64,000 nucleotides of DNA, taken from the NCBI RefSeq assembly GCF_024704365.1, contig NZ_JAJDFY010000001.1, positions 1,283,001 through 1,347,000 on the forward strand. Reading direction: 5' to 3'. Origin of the DNA: Thermomonas sp. S9. GTDB taxonomy: Bacteria; Pseudomonadota; Gammaproteobacteria; Xanthomonadales; Xanthomonadaceae. The stretch's first letter is position 1, and each line of letters starts with the position of its first letter. Positions 17,395-51,851 of the stretch are shown here, in pieces. Made by a program: the position numbers and the translations under genes. A model generated the notes under the pieces. That model saw only the letters and a list, made by a program, of their open reading frames with translations, was not told where the DNA came from and made no database searches.

Positions 17395-19968
<2,574 letters not shown>

Positions 19969-36575: not shown

Positions 36576-37634
36576 TCAGTTGTCGTCGCGCCAGCGGCGC
36601 AGGCGGATGCTGGCGGTGATCATCACCACCCCGGCGGCGACACCGATCCAGAGCTGCGGGGTGGCCAGCGTCGCGTACATCGTCCTGAGCGCGGCCATGT
36701 GCCCGAAGTGGCCGTCCTTGAATATGCCGAGGTCGGTCACGCCGAACCAGGAACCGGGGAACACGCCGCCCAGCAGGTGCGCCACCACGTGCTTCCAGAA
36801 CCAGCTGCTCTGGAGGTCGAACAGGTGCAGCAGGTCGAACCAGCTGATGAACACCCCGGCGAACACCGGCAGCATGATCGCCCACAGGAACGGCTTGCTG
36901 CGCGCCCAGGCCGAGCACAGCATCAGCCAGCCGGCGCTGGGCAGCGCCCACAGCGCGTACACCGGGATCGCCGCGATCGCCAGGCCCGCGTTGGCCAGCA
37001 GGTTGCCGGGGCTCCACAGCAGGGTCAGCGGGTTGCCGTGGTGGAGCAGCACGAACACGCTGAGCACCAGCAGGAACGCGACCATGCAGGCGATCCCGAC
37101 CGCCACCGCGAGGGCCGGCGCCACCAGCAGCGCGCTGGCCGCCTTCGCCAGCACGGTGTCGCGGTCGGAGACCGGCAGCGACTTCCAGAACAGCACGCTG
37201 CGGTTTTTGCGCTCGTCGTACAGGCTGCCCAGGCAGTAGAAGAACACCACGAAGCCGAGTGCCAGCAGGGGCCAGAACATGGCCGTGGCGGTGCTCATGC
37301 TGACGCCGTCGGCCAGCTTCTGCAGGTCCTCCGGCGACATCTTGTCGGTCATCAGGCTCAGGTCGAGGCCGTTGACGATCACCTGGCCATCGACCCGGAG
37401 GCCGCCGTGCTCGGTCACCGTCCGGCGCAGCCCCACCTCGGCCATCACCAGCGCCATCAGGGTCAAGAGCAGGGAGATGCCGCCGGCCCAGACCGGCGCC
37501 CAGAGGAAGCCGCCCTTGTGCTCCCAGAACTCGCGCTTGAGCAGCAGCCTCAGCTTGTGGGTGGCGTGCGGCGGGGTGCGTGCGGGCGCGCGCGAAGCGG
37601 CGTCGAAGCCGTCCATGTCGGTGCGGGCGTTCAT
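36576..37634 (-). CDS. ABC transporter permease of the YtrA-regulated operon
   Basis: This 352-residue ABC-2-like permease has about six membrane helices, including GGFLWAPVWAGGISLLLTLMAL, FWPLLALGFVVFFYCLGSLY, VAFLLVLSVFVLLH and a C-terminal WIGVAAGVVMITASI. A cytoplasmic N-terminus (LRLLLKREFWEHKGG) and the DERKNRSVLFWKSLPVSD loop are typical of bacitracin/lantibiotic-type exporter permeases. The start overlaps the ATPase stop by four bases. The substrate is unknown. Confidence 0.88.
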   Translation of the reverse strand: MNARTDMDGFDAASRAPARTPPHATHKLRLLLKREFWEHKGGFLWAPVWAGGISLLLTLMALVMAEVGLRRTVTEHGGLRVDGQVIVNGLDLSLMTDKMSPEDLQKLADGVSMSTATAMFWPLLALGFVVFFYCLGSLYDERKNRSVLFWKSLPVSDRDTVLAKAASALLVAPALAVAVGIACMVAFLLVLSVFVLLHHGNPLTLLWSPGNLLANAGLAIAAIPVYALWALPSAGWLMLCSAWARSKPFLWAIMLPVFAGVFISWFDLLHLFDLQSSWFWKHVVAHLLGGVFPGSWFGVTDLGIFKDGHFGHMAALRTMYATLATPQLWIGVAAGVVMITASIRLRRWRDDN

Positions 37635-38506
37635 GCGTAGGTTCCTTTCATGGTGGCGACGAACAGGTCGGCCAGGCCGGGGGTGCGGGTTTCGCCAAGC
37701 TCGGCCAGGCGCGCCGGGTCGGCGCCGTCGAACAGCATCACGGTCTTGCCGAACGGCAGGCTGCGCTCGTCGACCGGCCGCAGTGCGCGCGCTTCCTCGA
37801 GCCGGTCGGCGTTCACCAGGACCTCGAGATAGCGCTCGCCGAGCGTGTCCATCGCGGTTTCCAGCACGATCTTGCCGGCGCGGATGAACATCACGTCGGT
37901 CAGGATGTGCTCGATCTCCTCGACCTGGTGGGTGGTGACCAGGATGGTCTTGCCCTCGTCGAAGTAGTCCTCCAGCAGGCGCTGGTAGAACTGCTTGCGG
38001 TAGAGGATGTCCAGGCCGATGGTGGGCTCGTCCAGCACCAGCAGGCGGGCGTCGATCGCCATCACCAGCGCCAGGTGCAGCTGCACGATCATGCCCTTGG
38101 ACATCTCGCGCACCTTCATGCCGGGCTTGAGCTGGGTGCCTTCCAGGAAGCGCTGGCAGCGCGCGGCATCGAAGCGCGGGTGCACCCCGGCGACGAACTC
38201 GATCGCCTGCGCCACCGTGATCCAGCGCGGCAGCACGGCCACGTCGGCGATGAAGCAGACGTCGTTCATCAATGCGTCGCGCTGGGTGCGCGGGTCCTTG
38301 CCCAAGACCTGCAGCTCGCCCTCGAACGGGATCAGGCCGAGGATCGCCTTGAGCGCGGTGGTCTTGCCGGCGCCGTTGGGGCCGATCAGGCCGACGATGC
38401 GGCCGGCCGGGATTTCGAAGCGGGCATCATCCAGCGCCAGCGTGTTCTTGTAGGCCTTGCGCAGGCCGCGGGCGGCCACCACGGGCAGGTTCGTGTCGGC
38501 GTTCAC
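37631..38506 (-). CDS. ABC transporter ATP-binding protein
   Basis: The 291-residue ATPase has Walker A GPNGAGKTT at 42-50, a variant signature MSKGM in place of LSGGQ, Walker B LLVLDEPTIGLD and the switch His in TTHQVEE. The variant signature is usual for YtrB-type ATPases. I choose a GTG start at 38506, which overlaps the gntR stop (GTGA) and has GGGGGAAG five bases upstream; an ATG at 38518 is possible but has no good site. Confidence 0.9.
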   Translation of the reverse strand: MNADTNLPVVAARGLRKAYKNTLALDDARFEIPAGRIVGLIGPNGAGKTTALKAILGLIPFEGELQVLGKDPRTQRDALMNDVCFIADVAVLPRWITVAQAIEFVAGVHPRFDAARCQRFLEGTQLKPGMKVREMSKGMIVQLHLALVMAIDARLLVLDEPTIGLDILYRKQFYQRLLEDYFDEGKTILVTTHQVEEIEHILTDVMFIRAGKIVLETAMDTLGERYLEVLVNADRLEEARALRPVDERSLPFGKTVMLFDGADPARLAELGETRTPGLADLFVATMKGTYA

Positions 38507-38874
38507 TTCTTCCCCCATTTCTGCTGCGGATCCAGCAGTTCTTCGATGTTCAGGCCCAGGCGCTGGATGCGTTCCAATACCTGCGGCCATTCCTCGCGCA
38601 GGAAGCGCTCGCGCTCGCTCTGCAGCAGGCGCGCGGTGGCGCCCTCGGTGACGTACATGCCAAGCCCCCTGCGTTTTTCGACGAGTTGGTCGTCCGCGAG
38701 CTCCTGGTAGGCGCGCGAGACGGTGATCGGGTTCAGCTGGTATTCGGCGGCCACCTGCCGCACCGAAGGCAGGGCATCGCCCGGCTTCAGCACGCCGTCC
38801 AGCATCATCGCGATCACGCGCTCCTTGAGCTGGCGGTAGATGGGAGCGCCATCGCTCCATTCGACGGTGGCCAT
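38503..38874 (-). CDS. GntR-family repressor, YtrA subfamily
   Basis: The 123-residue regulator has an N-terminal GntR winged helix (PIYRQLKERVIAMMLDGVLKPG, LPSVRQVAAEYQLNPITVSRAYQEL) and a short two-helix C-terminal dimerisation region, the minimal YtrA layout. YtrA proteins repress their own ABC-transporter operons and respond to cell-wall antibiotics in Gram-positive bacteria. Here the gene lies between a small secreted protein (3-base gap) and its ABC genes. An inverted repeat at 39153-39174 over the operon promoter is its likely operator. Confidence 0.92.
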   Translation of the reverse strand: MATVEWSDGAPIYRQLKERVIAMMLDGVLKPGDALPSVRQVAAEYQLNPITVSRAYQELADDQLVEKRRGLGMYVTEGATARLLQSERERFLREEWPQVLERIQRLGLNIEELLDPQQKWGKK

Positions 38875-41218: not shown

Positions 41219-41233
41219 CCGGAGGCAATGGAT

Positions 41234-42588
41234 ATGCGCATCTGCATTTTCGGTACCGGCTACGTGGGCCTGGTGACGGGCACCTGCCTGGCCGAGGTGG
41301 GCCACGAGGTGGTGTGCGTGGACATCGATGCGGCCAAGGTCGCGGGCCTGAACCGCGGCGAGGTGCCGATCTACGAGCCGGGCCTCACGCCGATGGTCAA
41401 GGCCAACCATGCCGCCGGGCGGTTGCGCTTCACCACCGACGCGGCGGAGGGCATCGCCCATGGCGAGGTGCATTTCATCGCGGTCGGCACGCCGCCGGAC
41501 GAGGATGGCAGCGCCGACCTGCAGTATGTGCTGGCGGTGGCGCGCACCATCGGCCAGCATCTGCAACGCCCGGCAATCGTGGTGGACAAGTCCACCGTGC
41601 CGGTGGGCACCGCCGACCGCGTGCGCGCGGCGATCAAAGACGAGCTGGCATCACGCGGGGTGGAGATTGCCTTCCACGTGGTCTCCAACCCGGAGTTCCT
41701 GAAGGAGGGCGCGGCGGTGGAGGACTGCATGCGCCCGGACCGCATCGTGATCGGCACCGACAGCCCGCAGGCGCTGGAGACACTGCGCCGGCTCTATGCG
41801 CCGTTCAACCGCAACCACGAGCGGATCGTGGCGATGGACGTGCGTTCGGCCGAGCTGACCAAGTACGCCGCCAACGCGATGCTGGCGACCAAGATCAGCT
41901 TCATGAACGAGATCGCCAACATCGCCGAGCAGGTCGGCGCGGACGTGGAGATGGTGCGCAAGGGCATCGGCTCCGATCCGCGTATCGGCTGGCATTTCAT
42001 CTATCCCGGCGCCGGCTACGGCGGCTCCTGCTTCCCAAGGACGTGCAGGCGCTGGCGCGCACCGCGCAGCAGCATGGGGTGACGCCGCGCCTGCTGGGCG
42101 CGGTGGAGGCGGTGAATGCCGCGCAGAAGCAGCATCTGTTTACGTTGATGACGCGCCATTACGGGGGTGCCGAATCCCTGCGCGGCAAGACCGTGGCGCT
42201 GTGGGGGCTGGCGTTCAAGCCGAATACCGACGACATGCGCGAGGCGTCCAGCCGCGCCCTGCTGGCGCAGCTGTGGGAAGCAGGGGCGCGGGTGCAGGCC
42301 TTCGATCCCGAGGCGATGGGCGAGGCGCGGCGGCTCTTCGGTGCGCGTGAGGACCTGCAGCTGTGTGACAGCGCGCAGGCCGCGCTGCAGGGCGCGGATG
42401 CGCTGGTGGTCGTCACCGAGTGGAAGCAGTTCCGCAGCCCGGATTTTGCGCAGCTGCGCACGCAGCTTGCGGATGCGGTGATCTTCGACGGCCGCAACCT
42501 GTACGCTCCGGCCGAGGTCGAGGCGGCGGGCATCGCCTATTACGGCATTGGGCGCGGCCGTTCGCTGCGGCGGGAGGCGCTGGCGTGA
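41234..42588 (+). CDS. ugd: UDP-glucose 6-dehydrogenase (frameshifted here)
   Basis: Ugd oxidises UDP-glucose to UDP-glucuronate for exopolysaccharide or LPS synthesis. The repaired 451-residue protein opens [16 protein letters not shown] (NAD fold). It continues [40 protein letters not shown], the catalytic Cys in GGSCFPKDVQAL, and [14 protein letters not shown]-like [15 protein letters not shown]. One base is missing in the C run 42034-42036, splitting the frame right after the catalytic cysteine. I prefer the ATG at 41234 over 41228 because GGAGG is then correctly spaced. Confidence 0.93.
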
Positions 42589-42855: not shown

Positions 42856-43449
42856 ATGAGCAATTCCCTCCGCGACCAGCTGCTGGGCCTGGGCTTCAAG
42901 GACGTCCCGAAGCCCGCCGCGCGCCCGAAGCAGGAACCGCGCCGGCAGGACGCCCGCAAATCGGCGCCGGGACAGAGCGGCAAGCCCGCGCGTCCGTCGC
43001 GCCCGCCCGCGCCGCGCACGCGCGAGGACATCGACCTGGCCAAGGCCTATGCGATCCGCGCGCAGAAGGAAAAGGACGAGCGCATCGCGGCCGAGCGCCG
43101 CAAGCAGGAGGAAGCGCGCCAGCGCCGCGAGGCCAAGGCGAAGCTGGAGGCCTTTCTGCAGGGCAAGGCGCTGAACGCGGCCGACGCCGAGCACGTGCGC
43201 CATTTCGAATACGGCGGCAAGATCAAGCGCGTGCACGTCACCGCCGGGCAGCTGAAGGCGCTCAACGCCGGCCAGCTCGGCGTGGTCCAGCTCAACGGGC
43301 GCTACCTGCTGGTGGACGCCGCGGTGCTGGCCGAGGCCGAGGCCATCTTCGCCCCGGCCGTCGCGCTCAAGGTGGATCCGAATGCTCCGGCCGAGGAAGA
43401 TCCCTATTCCGACCCGAAGTACCAGGTGCCGGACGACCTGATGTGGTGA
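42856..43449 (+). CDS. DUF2058 (YaiL-like) protein
   Basis: The 197-residue protein opens MSNSLRDQLLGLGFKDVPKP. It has a long Lys/Arg/Pro-rich stretch and a charged helix (AQKEKDERIAAERRKQEEARQ), and ends with GGKIKRVHVTAGQLKALNAG and the KYQVPDDLMW tail, all typical of DUF2058. Family members have been called polynucleotide-associated or nucleoid-associated proteins; the function is not settled. It converges on the GGDEF/EAL gene with an 18-base gap. Confidence 0.88.
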   Translation: MSNSLRDQLLGLGFKDVPKPAARPKQEPRRQDARKSAPGQSGKPARPSRPPAPRTREDIDLAKAYAIRAQKEKDERIAAERRKQEEARQRREAKAKLEAFLQGKALNAADAEHVRHFEYGGKIKRVHVTAGQLKALNAGQLGVVQLNGRYLLVDAAVLAEAEAIFAPAVALKVDPNAPAEEDPYSDPKYQVPDDLMW

Positions 43450-43467
43450 GGTCTGGGCGCGCGGCGG

Positions 43468-45972
43468 TCATCCCGCGGCGCGCTGGCGCATCCACTCCCG
43501 CATCGCCTGTTCTGGCAGCGGGCGGCTGAACAGGTAGCCCTGGAAGATGTCGCAGCCGGCCTGCAGCAGGCGGGCATGCTGGGCCTCGGTTTCCACGCCC
43601 TCGGCCAGGACCTGCATGTCCAGCTGGTGGGCCATGCCGATGATCGCCTCGATCAGCGCGGCCGGCCGCTTGCCGAGGTCTGGATGCGGCTGCGCGTCGA
43701 TGTCGATCACGAAGCTGCGGTCGATCTTGAGGGTGTTGATCGGCATCCGCTTGAGGTAGGACAGGCTGGAATAGCCGGTGCCGAAGTCGTCCAGCGCCAG
43801 CTTCACGCCGTGCCGGCGCAGCACCTGCATCTTCTCCAGCGTGGCCTCCAGGTCGTCGGACAACACGCTCTCGGTCAGCTCCAGCTCCAGCAGCAGCGGG
43901 TTGCCGGCAAGCCGATCCAGCAGGTCCTCGATCCGGTGCACGAAGTCCGGCTCGCGGAACTGGCGCGGGCTCACGTTCACGCCCATGGCCAGGTCATGCG
44001 GCCATGGCGCGCCGTCCTCGCGGTTGGCCCGGCAGCGCTGCATGCAGGCCACCGCTTCTTCCAGCACCCAGTAGCCCAGCGGCACGATCAGGCCGCTGGC
44101 CTCGGCCTCCGCGATGAACTCGCCCGGGGCCACCAGCCCGCGTTCCGGGTGCTGCCAGCGCACCAGCGCCTCGATTCCGCGCAGCTGGCCGTGCGCGTCC
44201 ACCTGCGGCTGGTAATGCAGCAGCAGCTGGCCGCCGGCATCCAGTGCGGCCTTGAGGTCGTTGCGCAGGCGCAGGCGCCGGCTGGCGGCCTGCTGCAGGT
44301 CGTGGGCGAAAAACCGGATACGGTTGCCGCTGGCCAGCTTGGCCTGGTGCATCGCGGTCTCCGCCTCGCGCAGCAGCTCGCCGGGATCGCGGCTGTCGTT
44401 GGGGATCATCGCCACCCCGGCGCTGGCGCTCAGGTGCAGGGTATGGTCCTGCACCGCAAGCGGTTGCTCAAGACTGGCCAGCAACCGTTCCACGGTGCGC
44501 GCGGCCTGGGTGGAAGCCTGTTCCAGCGCCGGCTCCAGCTCCGGCATCAGCAGACTGAAGGTGTCGCCATGCAGGCGCGCCAGCAGCTGGCCCTGCTGCA
44601 ACTGGTGGGTTAGGCGCTGGGCCACCCCGCGCAGCACCGCGTCGCCGACGGCCATGCCCAGCGATTCGTTGATCGCGGTAAACCCGTCGAGATCGAAGGC
44701 AGCCAGCGCGGCGTGCTGGCCACGCAGTCTGGTGGTGGCGAGCTCGTCCACCACCCGTTCCTGCAGGTATTTGCGGTTGGGCAGGCCGGTCAGCGGGTCG
44801 AAGTTGGACAGCTGCCGGATTTCCTCCTCGGCCGCCAGGCGTTCGCGGATGTCGTGGGCGGCGACCACCCGCAGGCTGTGCCCGCCGCTCTGCCATTCGC
44901 GCACCGCCACCTCGGTGGGCACGATGCTGCCGTCCGCGGCCAGGAAGTCCAGCGCCCAGCGCCCCTCCATGCCGCGTGTGGACAGCTCGCGCTTGCGCTG
45001 GCGGTCGTGTTCGGCGATCAGGGTGTAGATGTCGCGCCCCCTGAGCGTCTCGGCCGGCAGGCCGATCAGGCGGCCGGCAGCGGCGTTGGCATCGACAATG
45101 GTGCCGCCGTCATGGATGAAGATGGCTTCGGTGGCGGCATCCGACAGGTGGCGGTAGCGCGCCTCGCTCTCGGTCAGGGCCAGGCGGCTGTGCTGCAGGT
45201 CCTCGGCCATGCGGGCCATGGCGTCCCCCAGCGCCTTGAACTCGCCGCTACCGCGCAGCTGCGGGATCGCATCGAACTGGCCCTGGCCGATCCATTGCAT
45301 GCCCTGTGCCAGCGCCTGCGCCGGGCGCAGGATGAAGCGCTGGGCCAGTGCGTACAGCAGCAGCATGGTCAGTACCAGCACCGCGGCTGACAGCCCGGCC
45401 ATCTCCAGGCTGCGTTGCCAGGCCTCGGTCTGCAGCGGCGTCAGGTCGTAGTCGATCAGCAGCAGTCCGATTCGATTCGAGCGCAATTCGTCGGGCCGCA
45501 GCTCCATCACCAGGGGCGCCACTGCAAGCAGGTGGTTGTGTGCGGCATCCCACGCCAGGTACTCATGCCGCTGACTGCGGGCCTGCGCGGTCAGCTGGAG
45601 GGGGTAGCCAGGAATGACCCTGAGGGCGGGTTGGCCTTTCCATGCAAAGCGCGTGGCGGCCAGCACCTGGTTGCTTTCGTCGATCAGCGCGGCGCGCTGG
45701 ACCATTGGCTCCAGCCCCAGCTCGGACAGGATGACGTCCACCCCGGGGCCGGTGTGCTGGCGCAGCACGGCTTCCAGGTTGCGGCGGGTCTGCAGCAGCT
45801 GCGCATGCGCGTTGCGATCAATGAACGTCTGCAGGTGCTGCCGGTAATTCTGGTGTTCCACCCACAGCAGCATGCCCAGCCGGATGATGGCCACGAAGGC
45901 GAGAAACAGCGGCAACCACAGCCGCAGGTTGATGACGCGGAGTGCGGGGATCGAAGTGCGTTCCATGCTCAT
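43468..45972 (-). CDS. Membrane PAS/GGDEF/EAL protein, probable c-di-GMP phosphodiesterase
   Basis: The 834-residue protein has TM1 at about 17-37, a periplasmic domain of ~150 residues, TM2 at about 192-212, a HAMP linker to ~262, a PAS domain at ~268-385, a GGDEF-like domain and a C-terminal EAL domain. The GGDEF motif is degenerate: HGDTF at 468-472. The EAL domain looks complete (EAL 601-603, VNVSPRQF, LTESV, LALDDFGTGYSSL, LKIDRSF, AEGVET). I infer a phosphodiesterase whose GGDEF part may bind GTP as a switch. It overlaps the upstream substrate-binding-protein gene by four bases and is the last gene of the Ner operon. Confidence 0.9.
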   Translation of the reverse strand: MSMERTSIPALRVINLRLWLPLFLAFVAIIRLGMLLWVEHQNYRQHLQTFIDRNAHAQLLQTRRNLEAVLRQHTGPGVDVILSELGLEPMVQRAALIDESNQVLAATRFAWKGQPALRVIPGYPLQLTAQARSQRHEYLAWDAAHNHLLAVAPLVMELRPDELRSNRIGLLLIDYDLTPLQTEAWQRSLEMAGLSAAVLVLTMLLLYALAQRFILRPAQALAQGMQWIGQGQFDAIPQLRGSGEFKALGDAMARMAEDLQHSRLALTESEARYRHLSDAATEAIFIHDGGTIVDANAAAGRLIGLPAETLRGRDIYTLIAEHDRQRKRELSTRGMEGRWALDFLAADGSIVPTEVAVREWQSGGHSLRVVAAHDIRERLAAEEEIRQLSNFDPLTGLPNRKYLQERVVDELATTRLRGQHAALAAFDLDGFTAINESLGMAVGDAVLRGVAQRLTHQLQQGQLLARLHGDTFSLLMPELEPALEQASTQAARTVERLLASLEQPLAVQDHTLHLSASAGVAMIPNDSRDPGELLREAETAMHQAKLASGNRIRFFAHDLQQAASRRLRLRNDLKAALDAGGQLLLHYQPQVDAHGQLRGIEALVRWQHPERGLVAPGEFIAEAEASGLIVPLGYWVLEEAVACMQRCRANREDGAPWPHDLAMGVNVSPRQFREPDFVHRIEDLLDRLAGNPLLLELELTESVLSDDLEATLEKMQVLRRHGVKLALDDFGTGYSSLSYLKRMPINTLKIDRSFVIDIDAQPHPDLGKRPAALIEAIIGMAHQLDMQVLAEGVETEAQHARLLQAGCDIFQGYLFSRPLPEQAMREWMRQRAAG

Positions 45973-47027
45973 TGGGCAGCCTCGTCACGGGTGAAACGGC
46001 CATCGAGCAGGCCGCGGGTATCCGGTGCGGTGGCCAGCAGGCCGTGCTGCTGCATCAGCGCCGCCTGGCGCCGGGCACTGGCCTGAAGCGCGGGCGTGCT
46101 CCCGCCGATCAAGGCCCGGTTGTAAGGCATGTCCGGCAGCACCAGGTCGGACAGCGACTGCGCCACGCCGGCCGGCGGCAGGCCCAGCCGCGGCGCCATC
46201 CGGGCCAGCGCATCCTCGCGGTGGCGGGCCAGATAGGCCAGCGCGCGCTGCTGGCCTGCGATCAGGCGGCGGATGTCCTCGGCGCAGCACCTCAGCGCTT
46301 CGTCGCGCACCACCAGCACGTCCACGATCTCGCCGGGCAGCTGGCGGCTGTCGAACAGCGCGTGCGCGCCTTCGTTTAGCAGCGACAGGCGCGATGGATC
46401 GAAGGTCACCAGCGCGTCCACGCGGCCTTTCCGGAATTCATCCGCATGCGCATCCACCGGTAGCGGGACGATATCGACATCGGCAGGAGTCAAGCCGGCC
46501 CGGTGCAACGCGGCATCCAGCAGGTAGGCGCCAGTCGCGGTCTGCTCCACCCCGATCCGGCGGCCGCGCAGGTCGGCAAGGGTCTCCACCCCCGCACGGC
46601 CCAGCACCGCATCCGCGCCGGCCGAGACATCCAGCACCCAGACGACGCGCAGCGGCACGCCCTCCGCGACGAGGGTCAGCGCCTCGTCCAGCGTCAGCGC
46701 GGCCGCGTCCAGCCGGCCCGAGCGCAGCGCATCCATCGATTGCGTGTTCGAGCTCAGCTCCACCAGCCGCAGCCGGCTGCCGTCGTAATACCCGAGGTCG
46801 CGCGCCAGATACAGCGGTTCATTGCCGGTCCAGACGTTGGTGCCGACGGTCAGCGGCTTCTGGTAGGTGGACGAGCAGGTGACAGGCAGCAGCAAAGGCA
46901 GGGCGGCCAGAAGCAGTACGCCCAGATGGGGCAGGTATCCCAATCCCTTGGCGAACAATCCCACGCATCCCCCTTGCGTTGCCGGATGGAACCCAGTGGC
47001 TAGTGGAACCGACGGTATCGCATTCAA
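45969..47027 (-). CDS. NMT1/SsuA-type periplasmic substrate-binding protein without a transporter
   Basis: The 352-residue protein has a hydrophobic segment at 33-49 followed by TCSS, a weak lipobox at Cys51. A binding-protein fold follows: VGTNVWTGNEPLYLARDLGYY, DALRSGRLDAAALTLDEAL, DLRGRRIGVEQTATGAYLL and VDALVTFDPS. This is the NMT1/SsuA superfamily, which binds taurine, sulfonates or thiamin precursors. No ABC permease or ATPase lies nearby. It is coupled by four-base overlaps to a Ner-like regulator upstream and the GGDEF/EAL gene downstream. I infer it is a sensor subunit for that enzyme. Confidence 0.88.
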   Translation of the reverse strand: MNAIPSVPLATGFHPATQGGCVGLFAKGLGYLPHLGVLLLAALPLLLPVTCSSTYQKPLTVGTNVWTGNEPLYLARDLGYYDGSRLRLVELSSNTQSMDALRSGRLDAAALTLDEALTLVAEGVPLRVVWVLDVSAGADAVLGRAGVETLADLRGRRIGVEQTATGAYLLDAALHRAGLTPADVDIVPLPVDAHADEFRKGRVDALVTFDPSRLSLLNEGAHALFDSRQLPGEIVDVLVVRDEALRCCAEDIRRLIAGQQRALAYLARHREDALARMAPRLGLPPAGVAQSLSDLVLPDMPYNRALIGGSTPALQASARRQAALMQQHGLLATAPDTRGLLDGRFTRDEAAQ

Positions 47028-47371
47028 GCGATACCTGCATTTTGCGGATTGCGCATCGCCCGCAGCCTGCTAGGCTTGGCCCCGGAGGGCAGCATCGGTT
47101 TCGGGCCGGGGCGTCCGCGGTTTGGTTTCCCGTCCGCGTCGTAGCGCGATGGCCAGATCCCGGGCGCCGGCAGGCCGATGGCCTCTGCGATGATTGCTTC
47201 GGCCAGAGGATAGGGCCGGTGCAGCGCAGTGGTCAGGCTGTTCTGGTTGCCGTATCCGTTGAGTTTGGCCAGTTGCCGCAGCGAATAGCCTTTCATGCGC
47301 AGCGCAGCGACCACCTCGGCAGGGTGCCAGTCCTTGTGACTGGCTTTTTTCGGGGATTGCTTTGCTGTCAC
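47024..47371 (-). CDS. Ner/Nlp-family DNA-binding regulator
   Basis: The 115-residue protein has the Ner/SfsB fold: DWHPAEVVAALRMKGYSLRQLAKLNGYGNQNSLTTALHRPYP carries the helix-turn-helix, and AEAIIAEAIGLPAPGIWPSRYDADG the family's C-terminal half of the domain. A basic tail of about 35 residues follows. Ner is an early repressor of phage Mu; chromosomal relatives are Nlp/SfsB. Its stop overlaps the start of the binding-protein gene by four bases. It reads away from the CI-like gene, with an operator-bearing gap between. Confidence 0.9.
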   Translation of the reverse strand: MTAKQSPKKASHKDWHPAEVVAALRMKGYSLRQLAKLNGYGNQNSLTTALHRPYPLAEAIIAEAIGLPAPGIWPSRYDADGKPNRGRPGPKPMLPSGAKPSRLRAMRNPQNAGIA

Positions 47372-47411
47372 GTCGGCGCTGTCGGGTTGAGTGGGCGGCT
47401 TAACTCTCTAG

Positions 47412-47440
47412 GGTATACGCACAAAATTGCATCAAGTCAA
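47412..47440 (-). promoter_or_regulatory. Sigma-70 promoter for the Ner/SBP/EAL operon
   Basis: On the minus strand TTGACT (47435-47440) and TATACC (47412-47417) are separated by 17 bases, about 41 bases upstream of the ner start. The -35 box falls in the spacer and the -10 box at the left arm of the inverted repeat at 47416-47455. Confidence 0.7.
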
Positions 47441-47455
47441 GCAATTTGTTGCGCA
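47416..47455. promoter_or_regulatory. Operator-like inverted repeat between ner and the CI-like gene
   Basis: Arms TACGCACAAAATTGC (47416-47430) and GCAATTTGTTGCGCA (47441-47455) match at 12 of 15 positions around a 10-base spacer. The repeat overlaps the ner promoter, so a dimer of the Ner-like or CI-like protein bound here could control the operon. The surrounding gap is clearly more AT-rich than the rest of the window. Confidence 0.65.
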
Positions 47456-47576
47456 TTGCGTCTAGGGCGGAAAACTTCGCTCGGGCTTTGGGGCGCAAAA
47501 GGATTGACGGAATGTCCGAATTTTTACGGGGCAACGAAAAAAACAGTCAGGCACGGATCTGGCCACGGGATGGACG

Positions 47577-48055
47577 GTGCGGCATCCGGATCTGCGCACG
47601 ATAGGGCAGCGTCTAGCGTACATACGTGCATCCATCGGTGGCAGCCAGGCCGACATGGCCGGGCGTATTGGAGTGGCGCTCCGCACCTGGCAGAACTACG
47701 AACAGGATCGTCGTTCGCCGGATGCGCAGGCGCTGGTCGCATTGTTCCGTCTGGGCTGGAGCCCGACCTGGGTGTTGACCGGGATGGAGGCGGCCTGCAC
47801 CGGCGAGCCCGGCACGACTGCGGGACAGGACGGGCAAGGCCTGATGGTGTCCCACGAGCTCGCGGAAGAGGCCTTGCGGGGTCTATGGCTGCCCAAGCAC
47901 CAATTCTTCGCGCTGATGGCACGCATCCATGCATGGCTGATGCATGGGCGTCCCTACGGTGAAATCCTCGAATTCGCGCGGACCGAGGCCGCACGCCTGG
48001 CACAGGATCGCAATAGCGAAGGCAATGCCAGTGGCATCGAGGCCGGGGCCATGCC

Positions 48056-48071
<16 letters not shown>
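47577..48071 (+). CDS. XRE-family regulator, phage CI-like
   Basis: The 164-residue protein has an N-terminal helix-turn-helix of the CI/XRE type ([45 protein letters not shown]) followed by [15 protein letters not shown]. An unrecognised C-terminal ~85 residues follows, with no LexA-like peptidase motif. The start is a GTG; an ATG at 47570 is out of frame. It diverges from the Ner operon. Its 3' end overlaps the end of metH2 on the other strand by 16 bases. Confidence 0.82.

Positions 48072-51851
<3,780 letters not shown>

Follow-up and report, generated by a model that had tools for sequence, protein, structure and literature searches.

A candidate c-di-GMP signalling cassette with a putative Mu-like phage immunity-type switch in Thermomonas sp. 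S9

In a stretch of 64,000 nucleotides from Thermomonas sp. S9 (contig NZ_JAJDFY010000001.1, positions 1,283,001 to 1,347,000; hereafter the window) we analyzed a block of four genes, which encode a membrane receptor with GGDEF and EAL domains, a substrate-binding protein (SBP), a Ner-like DNA-binding protein and a CI-like repressor. We consider it probable, although far from certain, that the block is a horizontally acquired cassette for cyclic dimeric GMP (c-di-GMP) signalling, in which the SBP gates the EAL receptor, and that it is controlled by a regulatory region of the immunity type of Mu-like phages. The combination of the putative phage-type switch with an SBP-receptor cassette is real at the level of the sequence and, as far as we searched, was encountered in this genome only.

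Results

The list of open reading frames (ORFs) together with Pfam searches revealed four genes between a DUF2058 gene and metH, and the assignments of an initial annotation of the window, made from the letters alone, were confirmed for all four of them. The receptor (43468..45972, minus strand) is composed of a transmembrane segment, a Cache-like periplasmic domain, a second transmembrane segment, a HAMP-like region, a PAS domain, a degenerate GGDEF domain (HGDTF) and an EAL domain; Pfam recognized EAL, GGDEF and PAS, and HAMP stayed under the cut-off. The SBP (45969..46964, minus strand) is of the NMT1/SsuA/TauA type with matches to NMT1_2 and NMT1, the Ner-like protein (47024..47371, minus strand) matches HTH_35 and the CI-like repressor (47577..48071, plus strand) gave helix-turn-helix (HTH) matches only, all of them under the cut-off. 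The nearest NCBIfam models are the SsuA family for the SBP and SfsB for Ner, both under the curated cut-offs, and in PHROGs Ner belongs to a transcriptional repressor family.

The CI-like gene had been described as facing the operon, which turned out to be incorrect: ci and ner are divergent over an intergenic region of 205 bp. Upstream of ner we found an early promoter sequence, TTGACT-N17-TATACC (47412..47440, minus strand), and an inverted repeat, AAATTGC-N10-GCAATTT (47424..47447), which lies astride the -35 box and is a candidate operator. A promoter plus repeat of such strength was reached in four of 1000 shuffles of the region. The same layout with other letters is present in the genomes G189 and G056, where MuA and MuB genes follow a divergent CI/Ner pair, and in weaker form in G052, where such a pair stands ahead of a gene with rve and Mu-transpos_C domains and an AAA ATPase gene. 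In the sample of the organism's own family (198 genomes), Ner and CI matches were each obtained in four genomes, our own included. The closest Ner proteins (69-73% identical) are encoded on four viral contigs with MuA/MuB-like genes, in which the best promoter-like site is located at one constant distance from Ner. Furthermore, a MuA-like match accompanies 75 of the 80 viral Ner loci that were kept, and all six Ner matches in the phage collection are at most about 1.5 kb away from the start of their records. The promoter layout, found as well in Mu-like prophages, supports the presence of a divergent CI/Ner pair of the Mu-like phage immunity type; a phage-type pair had been proposed at the outset.

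A wider regulon of this putative switch was set aside, as our genome holds the repeat at just one other place and with two mismatches when up to two were allowed. A search of the same genome for a second Ner match was negative at an E-value of 1e-5. A defence system was also set aside; CI gave just a weak RmrA match. Separately, four Mu-transpos_C matches are found in this genome (G000:C1, near 18279, 1732625, 2489255 and 2837929).

Judged by gene conservation, the pairing of SBP and receptor appears to be of a widespread kind and is well supported. In the family sample an SBP homologue was detected in 16 genomes, our own included, and at 16 loci besides that of the window. At eight of these (L018-L025) a membrane GGDEF/EAL protein is encoded directly downstream of the SBP, and at six (L027-L030, L032, L033) a large putative sensor is encoded beside the SBP, and the gene after it specifies a response-regulator-like protein that carries GGDEF and EAL. 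The SBP homologues at L028 and L032 were recovered by blastp and those at L030 and L033 were judged by their neighbours alone; the tblastn settings used did not recover the more distant L012, L014, L016 and L017.

Among the named genomes 151 SBP candidates were confirmed and the best 80 of the 151 were used for locus counts. A script detected a downstream ORF of at least 150 amino acids at 76 of these 80 loci, and 71 of the 76 ORFs begin at most 30 bp past the SBP stop, overlaps included. GGDEF/EAL is present in 38 of the 76, and 49 match the periplasmic domain of the receptor in the window. L106, where the SBP stop is followed by a separate GGDEF receptor, was left out of the counts 76/80 and 38/76; the three loci at which a downstream ORF is lacking are L117 and L122, both at contig ends, and L120. 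Thirty-six downstream ORFs were scanned for other outputs, which yielded HATPase_c in 29, HisKA in 24 and HAMP in 23. One of the 36 is a SUF-system protein (SUFBD domains), by its length probably the neighbour at L131; therefore, not all downstream ORFs are receptors, and the true gene after the SBP may have been missed by the script at this locus. The loci L070-L149 represent a wide family of TauA/SsuA-like SBPs, in which the output of the partner receptor, GGDEF/EAL or histidine kinase, varies and the SBP is retained, together with a matching periplasmic domain in 49 of the 76.

The eight closest loci belong to Acidovorax sp. NO-1, Acidovorax temperans, Simplicispira metamorpha, Comamonas denitrificans and four Comamonas assemblies, with an SBP identity of 52-60% and the same receptor at 54-56% identity. 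At L018, which has the nearest SBP of the family sample, the receptor is just 31% identical. Four plasmid records contain distant SBP homologues (29-41% identity). A phage-borne SBP was discarded, the scan of viral contigs having returned no relatives.

The SBP and receptor genes overlap by four nucleotides (45969-45972), and the same overlap exists at 36 of the 76 homologous loci. Four-base overlaps had been claimed for both junctions of the operon, and this one could be verified. The overlap of ner with the SBP gene depends on a TTG start at 47027 and is doubtful, as the GTG at 46964 appears to fit better as start of the SBP. The GTG is preceded by AAGGGGGATGC, leaves 36 residues before a shared PLT motif compared with 35 in the relative L071, and puts the SBP start 59 bp past the Ner stop.

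For a structure model of the SBP (mean predicted local distance difference test score, pLDDT, of 92) the matches are TauA and SsuA, the Xanthomonas SsuA among them. Residues 1-265 of the receptor were modelled with a mean pLDDT of 93, and the best solved matches are WalK, with models and its extracellular domain, followed by the sensor domains of PctD, DctB and CitA. The periplasmic domain, whose existence had been noted at first and could be substantiated, is thus predicted to be Cache/PAS-like. In an alignment of the receptor with its eight orthologues and L018, the EAL motif and the residues that we take to be catalytic in EAL domains are invariant, whereas the window has HGDTF in place of GGDEF and none of the eight orthologues has kept this motif unaltered. 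Therefore, a phosphodiesterase is likelier than a cyclase. The best reading of the receptor would be a ligand-controlled c-di-GMP phosphodiesterase, and its degenerate GGDEF domain is probably regulatory.

The history of the block was analyzed by comparison with G051, a genome of the same genus with a 93% identical DUF2058 protein, in which DUF2058 and metH are 10 bp apart and form an empty site. DNA homology between the window and G051 ends at about 43461 and restarts at about 48053, which bounds the inserted block (43462..48052), so that by this comparison the four genes are one 4.6-kb insertion. It is flanked by the DUF2058 gene (42856..43449, plus strand), which adjoins metH in relatives, and by the 3' part of metH (48056..50956, minus strand). 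The final codons of ci are within the sequence shared with metH, which places the junction at the end of ci. At 14 of 19 other same-genus loci metH is present in the 1.5-kb flank, at about 0.3 kb or less in ten and at about 1.15 kb in four, and at the other five it was not found within this flank; therefore, the spot is somewhat variable. None of the seven other same-genus genomes sampled yielded the SBP. Inspection of the junctions against G051 by eye and a repeat search recognized neither terminal repeats nor a target-site duplication, with decayed ends being possible, and for this reason a transposon or mini-Mu was rejected. Pfam and the ORF list revealed no transposase in the block, and MuA and MuB, which would follow ner in a Mu-like prophage, are missing there. 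The genes ner and ci have a GC content at third codon positions (GC3) of 0.72 and 0.74, whereas the SBP gene (0.85) and the EAL gene (0.89) resemble DUF2058 (0.91) and metH (0.89) in this respect, which indicates that the two halves of the block probably have different histories. Taken as a whole, the block was likely acquired horizontally, with a donor near the Comamonadaceae.

We also mapped Ner-like genes relative to c-di-GMP enzymes in other genomes. Ner matches were obtained in 20 of 369 genomes of a class sample and in 40 of 398 genomes of a phylum sample, our own included in both. Besides the locus of the window, the class sample contains 20 Ner loci, nine of which are phage-like with a MuA/MuB-like gene near and 11 of which are not. 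At three of these 11, from two lineages (G334 with G448, and G499), a c-di-GMP gene is located downstream. In G334 and G448 a GGDEF gene begins 4 nt past the Ner stop (L256:4858-6106 and L257:4822-6109, minus strand) and a divergent gene stands beside Ner; in G334 the latter encodes an HTH and an S24 peptidase domain (CI-type), and the gene order is the same in G448. Two of the three genomes of the small family of G334 hold the gene. The Ner gene of G499 diverges from an HTH gene and is followed by genes for a KaiC-type ATPase and a GAF-GGDEF-EAL protein (L258:1016-6003), and the 366 bp between Ner and KaiC make co-transcription uncertain. A scripted search for a promoter combined with a repeat gave nothing clear in G334, G448 or G499. 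G918 encodes a single protein of 577 amino acids with HTH_35, GGDEF and EAL beside a divergent gene for 185 amino acids without Pfam match. G973 has a 75% identical fusion and has kept the divergent neighbour (168 amino acids); both fusions are located on the minus strand (L295:3911-5644, L321:2916-4649). In the phylum sample GGDEF/EAL is present at one of 29 loci examined (L283, the fusion), out of 73 further matches listed.

Two additional observations concern other parts of the window. At 41228-42588 the match to a 451-amino-acid, ugd-like ORF of G051 is split across two frames, and at 17395-19968 a gyrA-like ORF, assigned by eye, is seemingly in two pieces. Both might be due to a frameshift or an assembly error.

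Discussion

According to the model we favour, ner and the genes for SBP and receptor would be transcribed as one unit from the early promoter. CI would repress this promoter, and Ner, as the first product, would damp it as well and probably also the ci promoter, an arrangement that could make the switch bistable. The SBP would be exported, bind a small ligand and dock on the receptor at its Cache-like periplasmic domain, and docking would change, in one direction or the other, the activity of the cytoplasmic EAL phosphodiesterase.

Several findings weigh against this model. Neither Ner nor CI was matched at any of the 80 SBP loci of named genomes, 71 of which include an upstream stretch of 1.5 kb or more, or at any of the 16 SBP loci that the family sample contains besides that of the window. 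The switch is therefore not a conserved part of the cassette. A lack of the Ner-SBP-EAL trio in all relatives had been named at the outset as a refuting outcome, and this is what we observed as far as we searched, so that the trio was given up as a conserved unit. The letters of the repeat are not common to the four viral contigs with about 70% identical Ner, which share only its place and the promoter. Two of the 16 other family loci (L026, L031) resemble transport loci. In addition, the split in GC3 may mean that the association of switch and cassette is young or accidental. It is conceivable, although in our view rather unlikely, that CI and Ner are no more than what is left of a decayed Mu-like element, placed upstream by chance, and that SBP and receptor have their own promoter and work like the Comamonadaceae orthologues. 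Such a remnant would fit the missing Ner and CI at other SBP loci, the different GC3 values, the junction at the end of ci and the gap of 59 bp from the Ner stop to the probable start of the SBP gene, which would leave some room for a start site. It is at odds with the intact reading frames of ner and ci, the intact early promoter with its repeat and the presence of CI/Ner and cassette in one insertion and in one operon direction.

The other alternatives concern the proteins themselves. An SBP that works for an ABC importer encoded at another site of the genome, with its place beside the receptor gene being secondary, would be in line with SsuA and TauA as classic importer SBPs and with the two transport-like family loci, but we regard this as very improbable. 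At most of the 80 loci a conserved receptor gene comes immediately after the SBP gene, just five of them show an ABC ATPase match within 3 kb, and one SsuC-type permease query of our own genome, run without a positive control, gave no match. The initial statement that no ABC permease or ATPase is near was upheld for importers as far as tested; an ABC-2-type pair is located about 4.6 kb from the block, an ATPase (37631-38860, minus strand) and a membrane protein (36576-37634, minus strand) with ABC_tran and ABC2_membrane matches. The suggestion that the SBP is unlikely to be devoted to transport was strengthened by the recurrence of the SBP-receptor gene pair in many lineages, and the SBP probably serves the receptor. 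We also see very little likelihood that the receptor acts mainly as a diguanylate cyclase or as a non-catalytic c-di-GMP sensor. One-sided or inactive GGDEF-EAL tandems are common, and the best solved matches include 5m3c, which is named a diguanylate cyclase; other best matches are named motility regulator and MucR phosphodiesterase, and the conserved EAL residues together with the altered GGDEF motif in the window and all eight orthologues argue against both possibilities.

We now turn to the known counterparts of the proposed SBP-gated EAL phosphodiesterase under a Mu-like switch. The control of a c-di-GMP receptor by an SBP is a known mode of action, here with a different binding-protein family. 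In the XAC2383-XAC2382 system of Xanthomonas citri, which belongs to the same bacterial family, a periplasmic receptor is reportedly paired with a diguanylate cyclase; this pair is named for a cyclase, whereas the receptor in the window is read as a phosphodiesterase. In NspS-MbaA of Vibrio cholerae and Sinorhizobium meliloti the ligand response of a membrane GGDEF/EAL protein depends on a periplasmic binding protein by which it is controlled, and our locus likewise has a conserved gene pair of SBP and membrane GGDEF/EAL protein and a predicted periplasmic domain. NspS, however, binds polyamines and by description is of another family, and the accessible parts of the sources mention no phage-type switch. 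Similarly, the periplasmic binding protein ArtI and the Cache-type c-di-GMP protein STM1987 of Salmonella are both needed for the ligand response, with the difference that ArtI binds arginine and STM1987 has a dCACHE domain (accessible parts of PMC8846402). The same parts state that among the domains of the periplasmic binding protein clan SBP_bac_3 alone has been studied in c-di-GMP networks. Two further examples of SBP-driven c-di-GMP receptors are cited in PMC9602780 and PMC11113362. In the literature searched, which comprised few subscription papers and was accessible in part, we found no description of Ner with a c-di-GMP enzyme in one operon or of an NMT1-type SBP with a diguanylate cyclase and EAL. 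The Scr system is presumably one of the two further examples.

The regulatory part resembles the immunity region of Mu-like phages with c and ner, as it has a divergent HTH repressor, Ner and an early promoter with a repeat near -35, and differs in the SBP and receptor genes located where transposase and MuB would follow. A non-phage operon under a Ner-like regulator is already known from IncA/C plasmids, where Acr1, a Ner-like HTH_35 protein encoded by the first gene of its operon, represses the promoter driving acr1, acaC and acaD (accessible parts of PMC4542580). In contrast to our locus, the operon of Acr1 encodes AcaCD, the second repressor is H-NS-like and no c-di-GMP gene is described there in these parts of the source (PMC4542580). 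Three further lineages connect a Ner-like gene with c-di-GMP enzymes, and a recurrence of this association above chance should be taken as a lead and not as a result. It is tempting to speculate that Ner-type switches, consisting of Ner and a divergent HTH-like gene, have been recruited repeatedly over c-di-GMP enzymes, the window included, that the fusion could itself read c-di-GMP and that a heritable on/off layer would be the result. We consider this idea doubtful, and the class sample speaks against it, as eight of its 11 Ner loci that are not phage-like have no c-di-GMP neighbour.

The unusual part of the locus is the putative switch ahead of the sensor pair. It would join two subjects that are usually studied apart, namely the decision switch of a phage, capable of heritable on/off states, and a ligand-gated c-di-GMP enzyme, and such an enzyme influences the choice between motile and attached life. 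The Ner-GGDEF-EAL fusion is a direct candidate for c-di-GMP-dependent DNA binding. Furthermore, a wide family of TauA/SsuA-like SBPs is marked out as seemingly serving receptors and not transporters.

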